A stretch of DNA of 64,000 bases from Mesorhizobium onobrychidis. Its GTDB lineage: Bacteria > Pseudomonadota > Alphaproteobacteria > Rhizobiales > Rhizobiaceae. Made by a program: the position numbers and the translations under genes. The DNA lies in contig NZ_CP062229.1 of assembly GCF_024707545.1 (NCBI RefSeq), forward strand, positions 2,151,501-2,215,500, in the 5' to 3' direction. The notes under the pieces were generated by a model that had not been told where the DNA came from, did not search any database, and saw only the letters and a list, made by a program, of their open reading frames with translations. Shown piece after piece: positions 15,904 to 31,800 of the stretch (position 1 is the stretch's first letter; each line of letters opens with the position of its first letter).

Positions 15904-16079
15904 GCCTGACCCGAGGCGGCGACCTCTTTGATCGGGCCGACGCACCGCTCACATGTCTGTTACGCTAAAACTGAAACACAGGCCGTGACCTGAATCCACA
16001 CTGGTGGCTCTATGGAGCGGCTGATGTGGCCCACCACATATTGTTGAAACGTCACCTGTGCCGACCCATTTACGCATTG

Positions 16080-16174
16080 CGTCGGATGTTTTCCTCCCAT
16101 TGCGTCCGGCGCGTTCCCCTCTGGAGGTTTTGAACCTTCATGCTTGGCCGGACTTTAACAGTCCGGCCTTTTTT
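16080..16174 (+). ncRNA. Candidate trans-acting small RNA with CU-rich anti-Shine-Dalgarno loop
   Basis: TTGAAA (16044-16049) and CATTTA (16067-16072), 17 bp apart, could start a transcript near 16080. The roughly 95-nt RNA would carry CCTCCCATTG near its 5' end, pair CCTCC with a later GGAGG, form a GGTT/AACC hairpin and end in a textbook terminator. The CTCCCA motif and size recall the AbcR (alpha-r15) sRNAs that regulate ABC transporter mRNAs in rhizobia, but I cannot confirm the family. Confidence 0.5.
16146..16174 (+). terminator. Perfect rho-independent terminator
   Basis: GGCCGGACT and AGTCCGGCC form a perfect 9-bp stem with a 5-nt loop followed by six T. No protein gene on this strand ends just upstream, which is why I infer an RNA gene. 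Confidence 0.9.
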
Positions 16175-21296: not shown

Positions 21297-21364
21297 GAGG
21301 AGCTAAACGGTCGCGATCCGGATCGCCTGGGCGTCAATAATGCCCCGGGATGGACCTGCGCTTC

Positions 21365-21814
21365 TTAAAAGTCGACGCGGGGCGTGTCCTGCATCTGGCG
21401 CTCGAACAGGAGCCAGAACGGCGATCCCCGGGTTTCGGCATACCAATGTTCGAAACCCGCCAGGGTCTCAGGAATGTCGTTGGCGGATTCCTCTTCGTCC
21501 GAAGCCCGGAATATCGCCAGCACAACCTGACCGAAACGCGCAATCACCTCCGAACGCGCTTCGCTGTCGGAATTCCAGCCGAGTCGCGTGCGCAGCGTGG
21601 CGAAGGCGCTGGCGACGGCTATCTCCTCACTCTCGGCCGATGCCATGGCCTCGGCGATCCCCTGCATGAGATTGAGCCGCCTGAAGGCGAAGGCGCGCTC
21701 TTGTTCGAGCGCAGCTATCCGGACTGCAGCTTCGCGCCGGAAGCGGCCTTCAGCGACCTTCGCGGCCTCGGCCGCTGTCTTGAGATCAACGAGAAAGCGG
21801 GTTGTCACTGTCAT
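21365..21814 (-). CDS. Hypothetical protein at the end of the sel operon
   Basis: A 149-residue, mostly helical protein with no signal peptide; I do not recognise the family. ATG at 21814 follows AAAGG at good spacing, and the longer frame to 21862 would start inside selC. Its start overlaps the end of the selB reading frame by 29 bp and lies 17 bp after the 3' end of selC, so it is probably transcribed with them. Composition is protein-like, rich in Ala and Glu. Confidence 0.6.
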   Translation of the reverse strand: MTVTTRFLVDLKTAAEAAKVAEGRFRREAAVRIAALEQERAFAFRRLNLMQGIAEAMASAESEEIAVASAFATLRTRLGWNSDSEARSEVIARFGQVVLAIFRASDEEESANDIPETLAGFEHWYAETRGSPFWLLFERQMQDTPRVDF

Positions 21815-23885
21815 CGCGCCTTTGCGAGAGTGGCGGAAGAGAGTGGGAGTCGAACCCACCAAGGACCGGCTCGCGGCCCCTCCCGGATTTGAAGTCCGGA
21901 CGCCCCACCGGGGACGATGCTCCTCCAGAAGCTTCCGCTATTGCCGGCTCATTGTCGGCCGGCGAGCGAAACAGATCCCGTCGATGCCTGTTGACGAGCC
22001 GCAGGTCGCCGCGTCGCAGAGTGACGCCATGCCTATCGAGAAATTCGAGGATCTGGATGGCAACCTTGCGTCCGCTGCCGGCACGATCGCGAAACTGGGC
22101 GGCGTTAAACCGCCCGCCCGGCTCCGTCGCCGTCAGATCGTCGACGATTTCGACAATCCCGGCCAATGCCGGGCGCAGGAAGAAATGATCATGGGCGACT
22201 TCGTATACTCTCCCGATGCGGCCGGTAAGTTTCAGGATCCGGCGGATTTCCGTTTCCGGCTTCGCCAACATATCGGCTATATCGCGGACTCTCGGCGGAT
22301 GATATCGCGTCGAGCCGCCGATGAGCCGCTCGATTTGCAGCCACAGCGTCTCGTCCTGAGGTGTCAGACGGACCTCATGGCCGGGCAGCCGCACCCAGGC
22401 GCCGTCAAGGGCGAGCTTGCCGGCGCGCGCCAGCATTCGCAGAGCGGCTGCAAACATCGGCGCCGGAAGTCGTGGGTCAAGCTGAAGGCGCAATCTCTCC
22501 ATGCCGATTCCCGGCAGATCCGGATTGTCCGCGTGAAAGGTCTTCAAGTTCGCGGCCAGGCCGAGCCTGAATTGCATCCAGCGTGCCAGCGAGAGAACGA
22601 ACAGCGTTTTCCTGACGGGAATGCAGACCAGTCCGAGGTTGTCGACCAGTCTCTGCATCTCGTCGCTGCCGAGTGCCCGGTCGCGCGCGAAAGCGCCAAG
22701 GTCAAGGTAATGGGGCGGCGCGTCGAGCAGTGCGGTGACAGCCGCCTCGGGATCCGGGACGGCATATGCTTCGATCTGGATAAGCCGTTCCGGCGTGCGG
22801 CGCTTCCGGCTCGGCGCCCGCAGATCGATCAGGCGTCCGCCGCCGATGGTCCGCTGCGCCGAGGTGTCGCGCACAACATAGGGGTCGCCCGCGGCAGCCG
22901 CGATCGGATTGTCCAGCACCAATTGAACCTTGGCGACGCCGCCGGGTCTGACCGGCTCGTCACTGAGAAGCACGACCCTTGCCCCAACCTCGGCCGCGGC
23001 GTGGTGGAGGCGTACCGGGAACCACTGGCCGATCGGCCTAGGCTCTCCTGGCAAGACGCGCAGCCTTGCGTCGATCCGACCCGTCGGCGCGTGAAGTTCC
23101 GGGTCGAGTATGATGTCGCCGCGCCGGATCGCCTCCTTGCCGATGCCGTCACCAGCCAGGTTGAGCGCGCAACGGTCTCCTGCCCGCCCGCGCTCAGCCA
23201 GCCTGTTCTGGGCGTGGATCGAGCGAACACGCGCCGCCAGGCCCGACGGGCTGACGACAACGTGGTCGCCGACGCCGACTGATCCTGAAAGGACCGTACC
23301 GGTCACGACAGTGCCGATGCCGTGCATTATGAAGCATCGGTCGACCGCCAATCTGAATCGTCCAGAGGATGCGCGGCCGGCAAAGCGCGACGCCTCCTCA
23401 AACAAGAAATGCCGCAGATCGTCGATACCGTCACCGCTGACGGCCGAGGTGGGCATTATGTCTGCTTCGGCAAGTGCTGTATCGGCAAGCGCGGCACGGA
23501 TGTCCGCTTGAACGGCGGCGCGCCGTGCGGGCGCGATCAGATCGGATTTGGCCAGCACGACCGCGCCGCGCCTGATGCCGAGCAGATCGATGATTGCCAG
23601 ATGTTCGCGCGTCTGCGGCATGATCCCGTCGTCGGCGGCAATGACCAATAGCACGAAATCGATGCCACTGGCGCCGGCGAGCATCGTATGCACGAACCGT
23701 TCGTGCCCCGGAACATCGATGAAGCCGATGACGTCCCCGTTCGGTGCCGGCAGGTAGGCAAAGCCGAGATCGATGGTCATGCCCCGCGCCTTTTCCTCCT
23801 GCAGGCGGTCGGTGTCGACGCCGGTCAGCGCACGCACCAGCGCGGTCTTGCCATGGTCGACATGGCCCGCCGTGCCGACGATCAT
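21786..23885 (-). CDS. selB: Selenocysteine-specific elongation factor SelB
   Basis: A 699-residue translation GTPase that brings Sec-tRNA to UGA codons. N-terminal motifs are GHVDHGKT, the [13 protein letters not shown] switch and DVPGHE; winged-helix domains occupy the C-terminal part, as needed for SECIS binding. Known SelB proteins are about 610-680 residues. The last 50 or so codons read straight through the whole selC gene and stop 45 bp beyond it, so the tail is encoded by tRNA sequence. It overlaps the Sel1-repeat gene by 4 bp. Confidence 0.95.
21831..21926 (-). tRNA. selC: tRNA-Sec (anticodon TCA)
   Basis: A 96-nt tRNA including encoded CCA. It has the long acceptor (GGAGGAGC with CTCTTCC), a D-arm close to E. 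coli selC (CGTCCCCGGTGGGG), the anticodon loop ACTTCAAA with TCA at 21890-21892, a long variable arm (GGGGCCGCGAGCCGGTCC) and the T-arm GTGGG/CCCAC. The eighth acceptor pair is a mismatch. It lies wholly inside the selB reading frame on the same strand. Confidence 0.95.
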
Positions 23886-24688
23886 GATCCGTCTCCCGTC
23901 AATGATGCCGCGGCACGACTTTCGGCCTCGGCGGTCTCGTCAGGGGTGAGGCCGGCACGCGCGGCCGGCAGATACCGCTCGGCGAGCGAACTGCCTGCTG
24001 CGTTCGCGCGCAGAAGCCAGGCATATGCCTCGACCGCGTCGGTCTCCACACCCGCTCCCAAGTGATAGGCGGCGCCGAGCATGGCCTGCCCGTCCGCATC
24101 CCCGCGCACGGCAGCCCGACGCCACCAGCGGACTGCCTCAGCGGGATCGCGCGGCACACCCAGCGCATTGTGATGGATCATGCCGAGCCGCGTCATGGCC
24201 GGCGCTATTCCCTGCTCGGCGGCGGCAGTCGCCCAGCGCCGCGCCTCTGCGGGATCGGGTTCGACCACCTCGCCTTCGAGCAGCATCCAGCTCAGCATGT
24301 CCTGCGCCGGTCCGTCGCCCTGATCTGCGGCTGCTCGATAGAGATCGGCTGCGCGGCCGTAGTCCTGCGCAATGCCTTCGCCGCGGAAATAGAGCGACGC
24401 CAGGTTCCGCTGCCCGACGGCGTCGCCGGCCTCGGCGGAGAGCGCCAGCCAGCGGAAGGCTAGGTCGCGGTCCCGCTCGACGCCAAGCCCTTCTGCGAAG
24501 CAGGCGCCGATATTATTCTGCGCACGTGCGACCCCAGCATGGGCCAGCGGCTCCCATATGCCCAAGGCCACCGCATAGTCACTGCGCCTGGCCGCTTCCA
24601 GGGCCTTTGCCAGGCGTTCGGCGACCGGCACGTCAGCCGGCCGGGGCACTTCGACCGGCCGGCGCGCGAAGTTCTCAAACCAGCGCAT
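23882..24688 (-). CDS. Sel1-like repeat protein between selA and selB
   Basis: A 268-residue helical repeat protein. At least five Sel1-type repeats are visible (for example [60 protein letters not shown]). There is no signal peptide, so it is probably a cytoplasmic scaffold. It starts after GGGAGGGACCG, overlaps selA by 14 bp and selB by 4 bp. The embedded, coupled position suggests a link to selenocysteine insertion or FDH assembly, but no function is established. Confidence 0.85.
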
Positions 24689-26093
24689 CGGTCCCTCCCG
24701 GATCGAAGCCGGCGAGGTTTACACAGAAGCCTGCTTCGTCTTCGAGGCAGCGCAGATCGAGCACAAGTGCCCGGTTCTCGATGCGCCCGATCACAGGAAC
24801 GCGCAGCCCGCGCAATGCCGCTGCAAGCGCTTCGAGCGACTTCCCGCCGCCGGACTTTACCCGCAGAACAAGACCGGCGCTGGATATCGTCTCAAGCGGC
24901 AAGGCACCCGAACCGACCTGACTGCGGCATTCCGCTGTCTCCACCACGAAAGCCTCACCCAAAGCATTGGCAACCACAGGGGCAAGGCGCTCCGCCTGGA
25001 TTGCGATCTCGGCCGAGGGGCGCGTCAGCAATCTCAGCGTCGGCAGTCTCTCCGCCAGGCGATCAGGGTCGCGGTAGAGCTTCAACGTCGCCTCCAGCGC
25101 GGCGAGCCGAAGCTTGTCGACCCGGAGCGCCCGCTTCATCGGATTGCGGCTGATCGCGGCGAGCAGAGCCTGGCTGCCGACGATGAAGCCCGCCTGGGGT
25201 CCGCCGAGCAGCTTGTCGCCGGAAAAGGTAACCAGATCCGCGCCGTCGGCAATCGCCTCGCGAACGGTTGGCTCATGTTTGAGGCCATAGGCAGCAAGAT
25301 CGAAAAGCGTGCCGGAGCCGAGGTCATGAACCAGGGGCACGCCCTGCGCCTTGGCGATGGAAGCCAGTTCGCGCGCACCCACCTCAGACGTGAAACCCTC
25401 GACGCGGTAGTTCGAGGTGTGCACCTTGAGGACCAGCCCGGTCTCCCGGCCGATCGCCGCGACATAGTCCTTCGGATGCGTGCGGTTGGTGGTTCCGACC
25501 TCGACCACCTTGGCGCCGGCGCGGGCCATAATCTCGGGCATCCTGAACGAGCCGCCGATCTCGATCAATTCGCCGCGCGAGACGATCGCCTCGCGGCCGA
25601 GCGCCAGCGTGTTGAGGACAAGAAGGACAGCTGCCGCATTGTTGTTGACCACAGTTACGTCTTCCGCTCCCGTCAGTTCGCAAACGAGCGAACGCAGATG
25701 ATCATCCCGATCGCCGCGCTTTCCCGTCTCGAGATCGAACTCGAGAGCGACCGCTTCGCACATTGCAGCGCGCACCGCCTTGATCGCCTCCTCAGCCAGT
25801 GGCGCGCGGCCGAGATTGGTGTGCAGCACTGTGCCGGTCAGGTTGAAAACCGGACGCAGGGAAGGGCGCTCTGCCACCTTCAGCTGTTCAACCGCGTCGG
25901 CGGCGACATCGCCGGGCTGCGGCACTGCTGCTCCGCCACGGCAGGCCTCCCGCGCTGCGGCAAGTGCCGCGCGGACAGCCGCCGTCGCGACTTGCCGGCC
26001 GAAGCGCTGGATAGCCGTGGATCCAAGCGGCGTCTTCAATACCTGATCGACCGATGGAAGATCACGCAGGCGACGTGCGGGCAAAGCTGTCAT
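24675..26093 (-). CDS. selA: L-seryl-tRNA(Sec) selenium transferase SelA
   Basis: A 472-residue PLP enzyme that converts Ser-tRNA(Sec) to Sec-tRNA(Sec) using selenophosphate. The PLP lysine is Lys294 in SGDKLLGGPQAG; the block PVFNLTGTVLHTNLGRAPL (81-99) is typical. Length equals known SelA (about 460). The frame is open to 26201, but that part overlaps fdhE and is not conserved; ATG at 26093, 8 bp after the fdhE stop, is chosen. It overlaps the Sel1-repeat gene. Confidence 0.96.
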   Translation of the reverse strand: MTALPARRLRDLPSVDQVLKTPLGSTAIQRFGRQVATAAVRAALAAAREACRGGAAVPQPGDVAADAVEQLKVAERPSLRPVFNLTGTVLHTNLGRAPLAEEAIKAVRAAMCEAVALEFDLETGKRGDRDDHLRSLVCELTGAEDVTVVNNNAAAVLLVLNTLALGREAIVSRGELIEIGGSFRMPEIMARAGAKVVEVGTTNRTHPKDYVAAIGRETGLVLKVHTSNYRVEGFTSEVGARELASIAKAQGVPLVHDLGSGTLFDLAAYGLKHEPTVREAIADGADLVTFSGDKLLGGPQAGFIVGSQALLAAISRNPMKRALRVDKLRLAALEATLKLYRDPDRLAERLPTLRLLTRPSAEIAIQAERLAPVVANALGEAFVVETAECRSQVGSGALPLETISSAGLVLRVKSGGGKSLEALAAALRGLRVPVIGRIENRALVLDLRCLEDEAGFCVNLAGFDPGGTDALV

Positions 26094-26100
26094 CGCGTCC

Positions 26101-27018
26101 TCAGTAGCCGACAAGGAATGGGTTGAACGACCCGCGACGGTAGCCGCTCTCGCGGACGAGCAGGTCCAAGCCGAGCGTCGCCACGTCGTCGGCAACCGCA
26201 TCGAGGTTCGGATCCTTGTGCTGATGCAGGATTTTCACATAGCAGCCGCATGAATCGCAGGTCTCGGCCTTTACAGTGCCGGGTCCGCCTTCGACTTCCA
26301 CATAGCCTATTCCCTTGGTCGAGCCGCACAGGGTGCATTTGATGCGCACGTAGTTCCAGAGAGTCCCGCAGAGCGAGCATGCACAGAACCTTGCCCCGTG
26401 GGAGCCATGCCAACCGACGATCATCGAGGACACCGGCGGGCCGCCGCAGACGGGACATGCGCCGTCACCTACCGGGACCAGCGCGGAGGCGTCGAGGCAA
26501 GCGGCAAGACGCGCGAAATGAAGCTGCAACGCCGCCGCGACATAAACATGCTCGGCCAATGCGTCGGCCGCGATGGCATCGGCGAGCACGTTGCGCACCA
26601 TGGCATCGCGCTCTGCAGGCGCGGCCAGCTTCAGTCGGTCGAGCGCGTCTGCCGCGGCCCGAGGCTTCTCGATGGCCGAAGCTGCCAGCACCAGGCGGTC
26701 GAGTGTCTCGAAGAACGCCCCGGAGGCGAACCTGTCACGATCGAGTGGAGGCATCCCGAAAGCGTGCGCCCGTTCACGCACCTGCGTTTCCGGCAGATCC
26801 GGATCGGACAGGCCGTCCTGTATGCCGTGCTGGACATCGGCGACAGCAGCGAGGAAGCGGAGATAAGGACCGAGTTCATGGATTTCGGCCAGTGCATTCA
26901 GCCTCTGCGCGCGTCGAACGAACAAACGCGTCGGATCAGGCAGACGGACGAAAGGCGGCGCCGAGACCTCACCGATGGCGGTAGGATCGATATCCGACGG
27001 AACGATCTGCCTTGGCAT
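26101..27018 (-). CDS. fdhE: Formate dehydrogenase accessory protein FdhE
   Basis: A 305-residue cytoplasmic rubredoxin-like protein needed for formate dehydrogenase maturation. Four zinc/iron-type CxxC knuckles are visible: CPVCGG, CSLCGT, CTLCGS and CDSCGC. Length matches E. coli FdhE (309). ATG at 27018 after GAGGTGAGT is preferred to the GTG at 27045. It lies between fdoI and selA, which binds the enzyme genes and the selenocysteine machinery into one operon. Confidence 0.95.
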   Translation of the reverse strand: MPRQIVPSDIDPTAIGEVSAPPFVRLPDPTRLFVRRAQRLNALAEIHELGPYLRFLAAVADVQHGIQDGLSDPDLPETQVRERAHAFGMPPLDRDRFASGAFFETLDRLVLAASAIEKPRAAADALDRLKLAAPAERDAMVRNVLADAIAADALAEHVYVAAALQLHFARLAACLDASALVPVGDGACPVCGGPPVSSMIVGWHGSHGARFCACSLCGTLWNYVRIKCTLCGSTKGIGYVEVEGGPGTVKAETCDSCGCYVKILHQHKDPNLDAVADDVATLGLDLLVRESGYRRGSFNPFLVGY

Positions 27019-28814: not shown

Positions 28815-31800
28815 CTATGCCACCGGCCCGGAGATGGGCTCGATATTGACCAGAAACGCCTTGTATTCGGGCGTCTCGATGTTGGCGTCGCCGACATAGG
28901 GCGTCAGCATGTTCGGGCCGAAGCCCTTCTTTGCCGCTCCGGTGAAGCCCCAGTGCAGCGGAATGCCGACGATGTGGACGGTCTTGCCGTCACAGGTCAG
29001 CGGCTTGATCCGCTTGGTTACCACCGCCTTCGCCGTAACCGAGCCGCGCTTGGACCAAACGCGCACCCAACCGCCTTTGGCGATACCCTTTTCGGCCGCT
29101 AGCTGTTCCGATATCTCCACAAAAAACTCCGGCTGCATCGCTGCGTTGACGACAACGTGCTTGGTCCAGAAGTGGAAATGCTCGGTCAGGCGATAGGAGG
29201 TCGCCGCATAGGGGAACTCCGCCGAGGCCGGCTCGGCGAACTGCCTGAAATCCCCTTCGAATACCCGCGCTGCCGGGTTGCCCCGGACGTTGGGCGCGAC
29301 CGGATTGACGATGGGCGATTCGAACGGCTCGTAATGCGCCGGGAACGGTCCGTCACGCATCATGCCCCGAGTGAAGAGGCGCGACACGCCTTCCGGATTC
29401 ATGATGAAGGGGCCGACCTCGCCGGGCTTAGCTGTCGGCGCGATGTCCGGGACGTCGTAACCCGACCATTTCGCACCGTCCCATTCGATCACCTTGCGGT
29501 CGGGATCCCAGGCCTTCCCGTTCAAATCGGCCGAAGCCCTGTTGTAGAGGATGCGGCGATTGGCAGGCCATGAGAACGCCCATTTCAAGTAGGCGCCTGT
29601 CTCGTCGGGATCGTCAGTGTCCCGGCGGGCCATGTTGTTACCCTTCTCGTTGAAGCAGCCGGAATAGATCCAGCAGCCGCAGGATGTGGAGCCGTCGTCG
29701 CGCAGCGCGGCGAAGCCCGGTAACAGTTTTCCGGTCTCGGCAAGCACCTTGGTCGGATCGGTCGTGTCCGTCACCGTCGCGAGCGCCCGGCCGTTGAGCT
29801 CCTGGGCGATTTCCTCGGCCGTCGGATCGCCCGCATCGGCATAGGGCCAGTGGAGATTAAGGATCGGATCGGGGAAGGCGCCCCCTTCCTTGCGATAGAG
29901 TTCCTTCAGGCGAAGATGTATCTGCGCCATGATCCAGGTGTCGCGCTTGGCCTCGCCCGGCGGTGTGCCGCCGGCCCAGTGCCACTGTAGCCAGCGCCCC
30001 GAATTTGTAAGAGAGCCGTCGTCTTCGGCAAAGCACGTCGACGGCAGTTCTATCACTTCGGTCTGAATCACCGACGGATCGACGTCATTGTGCGCGCCGT
30101 GGTTCTCCCAGAAGCGCGCCGTCTCGGTAGCCAACGGGTCCATGACGACCAGGAGCTTGAGCTTGGAGAGCGAGGCCGTGATCTTCTGCTTGTTGGGGAA
30201 CGACTGCAGCGCGTTGAACCCTTGGCAAAGATACAGGTTGATCTTGCCCTGGTGCATCATATCGAAGGCGCGCAGCACGTCGTAGCCGGGCACGTCGAGC
30301 TTCGGCAGGTAGTCGTAGGCGAAGTCATTTTCCGGGGTTGCCGCCGGGCCGTACATGGCCTTCTGGAAACTGACGAAGAATTTCCTGTAGTTCTGCCAGT
30401 AGCTCATCTGGTTCGGCCTGAGCGGCTTGAAACCGCGCGTCGACATATAGGCGGTGAGGTCCGGTTCCTTCTCGTTGGGCAGCGTCAGATAGCCAGGAAG
30501 CAAGTTGGACATCAGCCCGACATCGGTCAGTCCCTGGATGTTGGAGTGGCCGCGCAGCGCGTTCATGCCGCCGCCACGAATGCCGATATTGCCCAGAATG
30601 AGCTGCAGCATCGCCATGGCGCGGATGTTCTGCGAGCCCTTCGAGTGCTGCGTCCAGCCGAGCGCGTACATCGAGGTCATCGCCTTGGTCGGCGACGAGC
30701 ACTCCGCCACCATCTCGGCCACCTTCAGGAACTTATCCTTCGGCGTGCCGCAGATGCGCTCGACCATTTCCGGCGTGTAGACCGCGACATGATTCTTCAG
30801 CAGGTTCCAGACGCAGCGAGGATTTGCCAGCGTATCATCGACGACGGCGAAGCCGTCTTCGCCGATCTCGTAGTCCCAGCTCGACTTGTCGTAGTCGCGC
30901 TTCGCCTCGTCGTAGCCGGAAAACAGGCCATCCTGGTAGGTGAAGCCCTGCTTGACGACATAGCCAGCGTTGGTGAACGCCTTCACATAGTCCCGCTGCA
31001 CCTTGTCGTTTTCGATGCAATAGTTGATCAGTCCGAGCAGGAACGCGATGTCCGTGCCTTGACGGATTGGTGCATAGAGATCCGACACCGAAGCCGAGCG
31101 CGTGTAGCGCGGATCGACGACGATGAGCTTGGCGCCACGGTTGGCCTTCGCCTCAGTGACCCATTTGAAGCCACAAGGATGGGCCTCGGCGGCATTGCCG
31201 CCCATGATCACGACAAGATCGGTGTTCCTGATGTCGGTCCAGGAATTCGTCATTGCTCCGCGGCCGAATGTTGGGGCGAGACTCGCCACCGTCGGGCCGT
31301 GTCAGACACGTGCCTGATTATCGAACACCAGCATGCCCGCGCTACGGACCACCTTGTAGGTCTCGAACGCGGTTTCATTAGTCGTCGCCGAAGCGGCGAG
31401 GAAGCCGGTGGTAATCCATCGGTTGACCGTCACACCGTCATTGTTCGTCGCGACGAAGTTCTGGTCGCGATCGTCCTTCATCAGGCGGGCGATACGGTCA
31501 AGCGCGTTTTCCCACGTTGTCGGCTCGAACTTGTCCGCCCCGGGCTTGCGGATCATCGGCTGTTGCAAGCGGGTCGGGGCCTTGACGAAGCCGAGCAGGG
31601 CCGAGCCCTTGGGGCACAAGGTGCCGCGGTTGGTCGGATGGTCGGTATCGCCCTCGATATGGGTGATCTCGGCCTTTTCGCCCTTCCTGAGATCACCCTT
31701 TGAGTAGAGGATCACACCGCACGCCACTGAGCAGTATGGACAGGTATTGCGTGTCTCGGTGGTGTTGGCGAGTTTGAAGGATCGTATCGCCTTGGCATGT

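Follow-up and report, generated by a model that had tools for sequence, protein, structure and literature searches.

Organisation of the selABC locus

The selenocysteine locus of Mesorhizobium onobrychidis was analysed in a window of 64,000 nucleotides (contig NZ_CP062229.1, positions 2,151,501 to 2,215,500). The features relevant to this work are the following:

24675..26201, minus strand: selA (Pfam SelA, 544.9 bits)
23882..24688, minus strand: gene for a Sel1-repeat protein, its stop overlapping the selB start by 4 nt (ORF list, Pfam)
21786..23885, minus strand: selB ORF, from ATG at 23885 to the TGA ending at 21786; 699 codons (699 aa) including the selC part and the tail (ORF list)
21969..23885, minus strand: SelB proper, comprising GTPase, beta-barrel and winged helices and taken to end at F639 in the RDLF motif (Pfam, NCBIfam)
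21927..21968, minus strand: in-frame spacer of 42 nt between SelB proper and selC
21831..21926, minus strand: selC (tRNA-Sec), 96 nt with encoded CCA, i.e., 32 codons in the selB frame
21786..21830, minus strand: selB tail 3' of selC, 14 codons plus the TGA stop
21365..21814, minus strand: downstream ORF of 149 aa, starting 29 nt inside the selB tail

The selB product was identified as a SelB elongation factor by Pfam matches and by NCBIfam TIGR00475 (selB; 416.8 bits, residues 1-631), and both an EF-Tu-like GTPase and the SelB winged helices are present. With F639 of the RDLF motif as end anchor, SelB proper ends near residue 631-639, which is earlier than residue 650; an end well before that residue had been named initially as a point against the interpretation. 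The 149-aa downstream ORF, scanned from an earlier TTG, had no match in Pfam or NCBIfam. Its homologues occur 3' of nested selC in relatives, and it is probably the ORF1 or ORF2 of Mukai (2021; see below). A SECIS_3 match (window 31249-31307, minus strand, 86.5 bits) lies upstream of selA and selB in the same direction, presumably in a formate dehydrogenase selenoprotein gene. The window also contains a match to the alphaproteobacterial ar15 small RNA family (16079-16171, 53.4 bits).

ARAGORN places tRNA-Sec at 21831-21927, and Rfam RF01852 matches 21926-21835 above cut-off (74.4 bits; anticodon UCA; G1 = 21926). Among the 12 RF01852 matches in the genome the one nested in selB ranks top by 24.7 bits; ARAGORN typed the best 8 of the 12 (the other four score 31.8-36.8 bits) as one tRNA-Sec and seven tRNA-Ser or tRNA-Leu. 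The cloverleaf is the minimum-energy fold of the selC part inside a 197-nt transcript stretch, and the selC region showed no excess stability over shuffled sequences (z -0.95). A separate selC promoter had been named as an observation that would count against the initial interpretation; a weak sigma-70 scan of 21300-22300 found no promoter-like site. One terminator-like site was found around selC, on the opposite strand, with 1.1 expected by chance.

The ORF list, ARAGORN and Rfam agree that selC lies whole inside selB on the same strand with no stop codon before or within it, as had been claimed initially. The extension read from selC begins with Gly (GGA) and finishes with Pro (CCA). Openness of selC was rejected as evidence because all three sense frames are open in this genome anyway. 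A local Markov model gave P = 0.75 for an open 14-codon spacer and 0.56 for spacer plus tail. With chance openness of about 0.56 and a selC free of stops in every sense frame, the open frame is unremarkable in one genome; what is remarkable is the conservation of its phase across relatives.

Nested selB-selC is already known, since Mukai (2021, Int J Mol Sci 22:4605, PMC8124441) described it in various Rhizobiales and in some further Alphaproteobacteria, reported that the selB stop overlaps the start of ORF1 or ORF2 in many cases, and hypothesised that tRNA excision leaves a non-stop selB mRNA and lowers SelB. According to the same article selC measures 96 or 93 nt, lengths that may help to keep frame, and Methylopila and some Ensifer have lost the nested arrangement. 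A 2022 review (PMC9312934) repeats this account, and no experimental follow-up of the nesting was found in searches of an open-licence library. The locus resembles the nested loci of Mukai in having a whole 96-nt tRNA-Sec in the selB ORF with a GGA (Gly) start and a CCA (Pro) end, a selB stop that falls at or within the beginning of the ORF that follows, and a Sel1-like protein in a selABC cluster; it differs in that this stop is placed 29 nt into the following ORF. The article also names tRNA-Lys inside cox1 of Armadillidium mitochondria, likewise a tRNA within a coding region in the same orientation, which differs in belonging to a compact mitochondrial genome. Relative to the account of Mukai, the additions made here are a tree-based test of the reading frame and a prophage-like case.

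Distribution of nesting and reading phase across selC

Sixty-seven named loci were collected with peptide patterns from the window's SelB; because the patterns came from this very protein, the sample is biased to near kin. Genome surveys for SelB at E <= 1e-60 yielded matches in 54 of 385 genomes of the class, 11 of 199 of the order and 29 of 247 of the family (own genome counted in each), and in 20 of 43 genomes of another order. At E <= 1e-30 the phylum survey gave 97 of 398 (own genome counted), many of these being weak matches to about the first 350 residues only. Among the same-genus genomes listed, two of nine (own included) have a SelB match, i.e., the selenocysteine machinery is patchy in the genus.

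Nesting was found at 52 of the 67 named loci, at 12 of 28 loci of the family, at one of 10 new loci of the order, at one of 21 loci of the other order, and at three of 54 class loci (window included); in 25 of these 54 the available DNA shows no selC within 1 kb. Among the stronger phylum matches listed, one of 26 new loci is nested (L191, same genus) and one partially nested (L192, same order). By these counts nesting is frequent near this genome and rare across the class at large. Taken together, the samples contain 70 nested loci; 69 read selC in frame 0, and L167 reads it in frame 2. One locus in the tree described below, L015, carries the record title Mycobacterium sp. KBS0706 but clusters with two loci of Inquilinus limosus, so that the record may be mistitled.

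A single FastTree tree of SelB was built from 180 loci including the window, from which eight were dropped (four duplicates, four running off the contig); 59 loci without selC within 600 nt and L058, too short at a contig end, were also left out, which resulted in 112 tips. L191 to L216 are absent from the tree, and L058 is counted in the frame tallies only. Several loci come from draft genomes or MAGs. The smallest clade with all frame-0 nested tips in it comprises 77 tips, of which 66 are nested and 11 are not.

Of the 66 de-duplicated nested loci, 65 enter selC at G1 in frame 0, and the relatives bear out a constraint on the frame. Spacers of the frame-0 nested loci range from 18 to 102 nt, every one a multiple of three. 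Parsimony requires at least 22-23 changes of spacer length and one change of frame among the 66 nested loci, counts that hold after collapse of weakly supported nodes; the 11 non-nested clade members account for 10 length changes and six frame changes. Shifted frames would still read past selC in 46 of 66 loci (frame 1) and 36 of 66 (frame 2), together 82 of 132, the 66 loci here being the frame-0 loci including L058. With this proportion allowed for and the three indel classes modulo three taken as equally likely, the probability of the observed retention is about 2.5e-7 for 23 events and 0.001 for 12 independent ones. The test depends on the assumed indel spectrum, and the nested loci are kin, so that frame 0 may have been inherited from a single origin.

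Stop codons within selC were also counted. Frame 0 has none in 65 nested loci but has them in 3 of the 11 non-nested loci of the clade and in 11 of all 45 non-nested loci (six events); frames 1 and 2 contain stops in 3 and 9 of the 65 nested loci (three and four events). Since frames 1 and 2 also carry stops in 9 and 21 of the 45 non-nested loci, non-nested selC is richer in stops in every frame, and in the non-nested clade members frame-1 stops are as common as frame-0 stops (3 of 11 each).

Single loci deviate from this picture. L167, nested in frame 2, is a true exception. L006 and L054 were rejected as off-frame loci: ARAGORN had shifted their tRNA boundaries, and anchoring on the anticodon loop restores the frame. 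In L122 and L192 the selB stop lies at about nt 46-48 of selC, a position also given for Dyella and Luteibacter by Mukai (2021, PMC8124441); L122, for which estimates of phase disagree, was excluded from the nested set of the frame test. L147 and L165, inside the nested clade, have the selB stop immediately 5' of G1 of selC in frame 0 and are likely recent reversions. The initial interpretation stands with respect to nesting, strand, shared sequence and constraint on the frame, whereas its expectation that close relatives have no stop before selC does not: 11 of the 77 clade tips are such relatives. As these exist and several lineages have lost nesting, nesting is dispensable and not essential.

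Possible roles of in-frame read-through

Substitutions were counted by codon position. For the spacer, 57 of the 65 loci (those in same-length groups of three or more) give 125/135/151, and for the tail 55 of the 65 give 67/64/66; the final 90 nt of SelB proper in those 57 loci give 103/37/300. Spacer and tail show little or no constraint at the amino-acid level, their codon positions changing almost equally; from these near-equal rates we infer that it is reading through that seems to be kept, and not a peptide outside selC. A peptide encoded by selC itself might in principle be functional at the C-terminus of SelB. Among the loci listed, all 54 full-length nested ones encode a similar peptide in frame 0, and codon position 2 of selC is the least changed in nested loci (54/24/39; 65 loci) as compared with non-nested ones (126/126/134; 38 of 45); tRNA structure and the set of columns that vary confound this comparison. 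However, this peptide is largely dictated by the tRNA sequence anyway, codon position 1 is not reduced, and selB of Mesorhizobium temperatum retains just 44 of the 96 nt (see below); we regard such a function as very improbable.

Little amino-acid constraint in spacer and tail would also be expected if the stop before selC had been lost once and the unselected extension persisted because selC was open by chance in all frames. The stop-free selC of this genome, the chance openness calculated above and the reversions among relatives in the tree are compatible with such a relic. At odds with it are the 22-23 length changes set against one frame change and the distribution of stops, in which frame 0 of nested selC is free of them and frames 1 and 2 and non-nested frame 0 are not. 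The idea is already disfavoured, and we consider it improbable.

Retention of the frame is in itself a reason to think that translation of selC occurs and matters. In 34 of 66 nested loci ORF1 or ORF2 begins no more than 40 nt from the selB stop, which it does in none of the 11 non-nested loci of the clade (Fisher p 0.0017 without correction for kinship), the starts being deduced from tblastn matches with reference sequences taken from those very loci. The remaining 32 nested loci have no start as close as this, and for 16 of the 66 no ORF1/2 match occurs within 1.5 kb. These 32 uncoupled loci show 11 length changes and have kept the frame in all cases but L167 (31 frame-0 loci), so coupling is not the whole reason for the frame unless it was lost recently; an uncoupled Mesorhizobium subclade of eight loci contributes only one length change.

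A rival reading, that of the initial annotation and of Mukai (2021), is that selection keeps a balance in which tRNA-Sec excision would turn selB mRNA into a non-stop message and reduce SelB. The geometry of the locus fits this proposal, nesting is conserved, and a published rationale exists in that surplus SelB sequesters Sec-tRNA (PMC8124441). Yet it predicts no particular frame although the frame is retained, several relatives manage without nesting, and no measurement of it was found in searches of an open-licence library; as the purpose of the arrangement we find it rather unlikely. A choice between message and tRNA requires only that no stop intervenes, whatever the frame; the frame is kept nonetheless, which points to a further constraint, for example coupling to the ORF. 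Judged from the sequences, translational coupling to the next ORF appears at least as well supported as the choice.

The explanation to which we give slightly better than even chances combines the two: one RNA would serve either as SelB/ORF1 message or as tRNA-Sec precursor, and in-frame read-through would deliver ribosomes to ORF1. Further points in its favour are the single tRNA-Sec typed in the genome and the cloverleaf that folds inside the longer RNA. In this combined explanation, selA, sel1, selB/selC and ORF1 are probably transcribed as one unit. After SelB proper, ribosomes would continue in frame over selC and the short tail and terminate beside or within the beginning of ORF1 (in some relatives ORF2), so that they could reach that gene. 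In other transcript molecules selC would fold first and be cut out by RNase P and 3' nucleases. By the geometry of the locus, excision would take away the selB stop; a molecule from which selC is excised could yield tRNA-Sec but no terminated SelB, and each RNA would therefore be message or precursor, not both at once. That selection acts on the passage of ribosomes across a functional tRNA gene, with access to ORF1/ORF2, competition with RNase P or both as the gain, is a narrower proposition that we rate just short of even; it is suggested by a phase across selC that survives many indels while the peptide outside selC varies. If ribosomes do cross selC, one RNA is both message and tRNA precursor, and the locus would provide a clean system for translation versus RNase P.

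A split selC in Mesorhizobium temperatum

SelB of M. temperatum is 97% identical to the window's SelB over residues 1-668. Its gene holds the first 44 nt of selC only and ends at 682 aa. An intact, identical selC and the downstream ORF are found on another contig beside a phage-integrase gene, beyond which lie genes for a DnaB-like helicase and a phage lysozyme. The case involves the following coordinates:

L001, 6960-7049; L130, 1832-1927; L141, 404-1789

Apparently, a prophage or prophage-like element took the nested selC as its integration site in M. temperatum, and the two contigs would bound one element. In S. meliloti, Mukai (2021, PMC8124441) described a tRNA-Sec remnant in selB of pSymA, the 5' part having been left after a transposon insertion. 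M. temperatum L001 has the same anatomy, but differs in that the intact selC is present on another contig, where it adjoins the phage-integrase gene.
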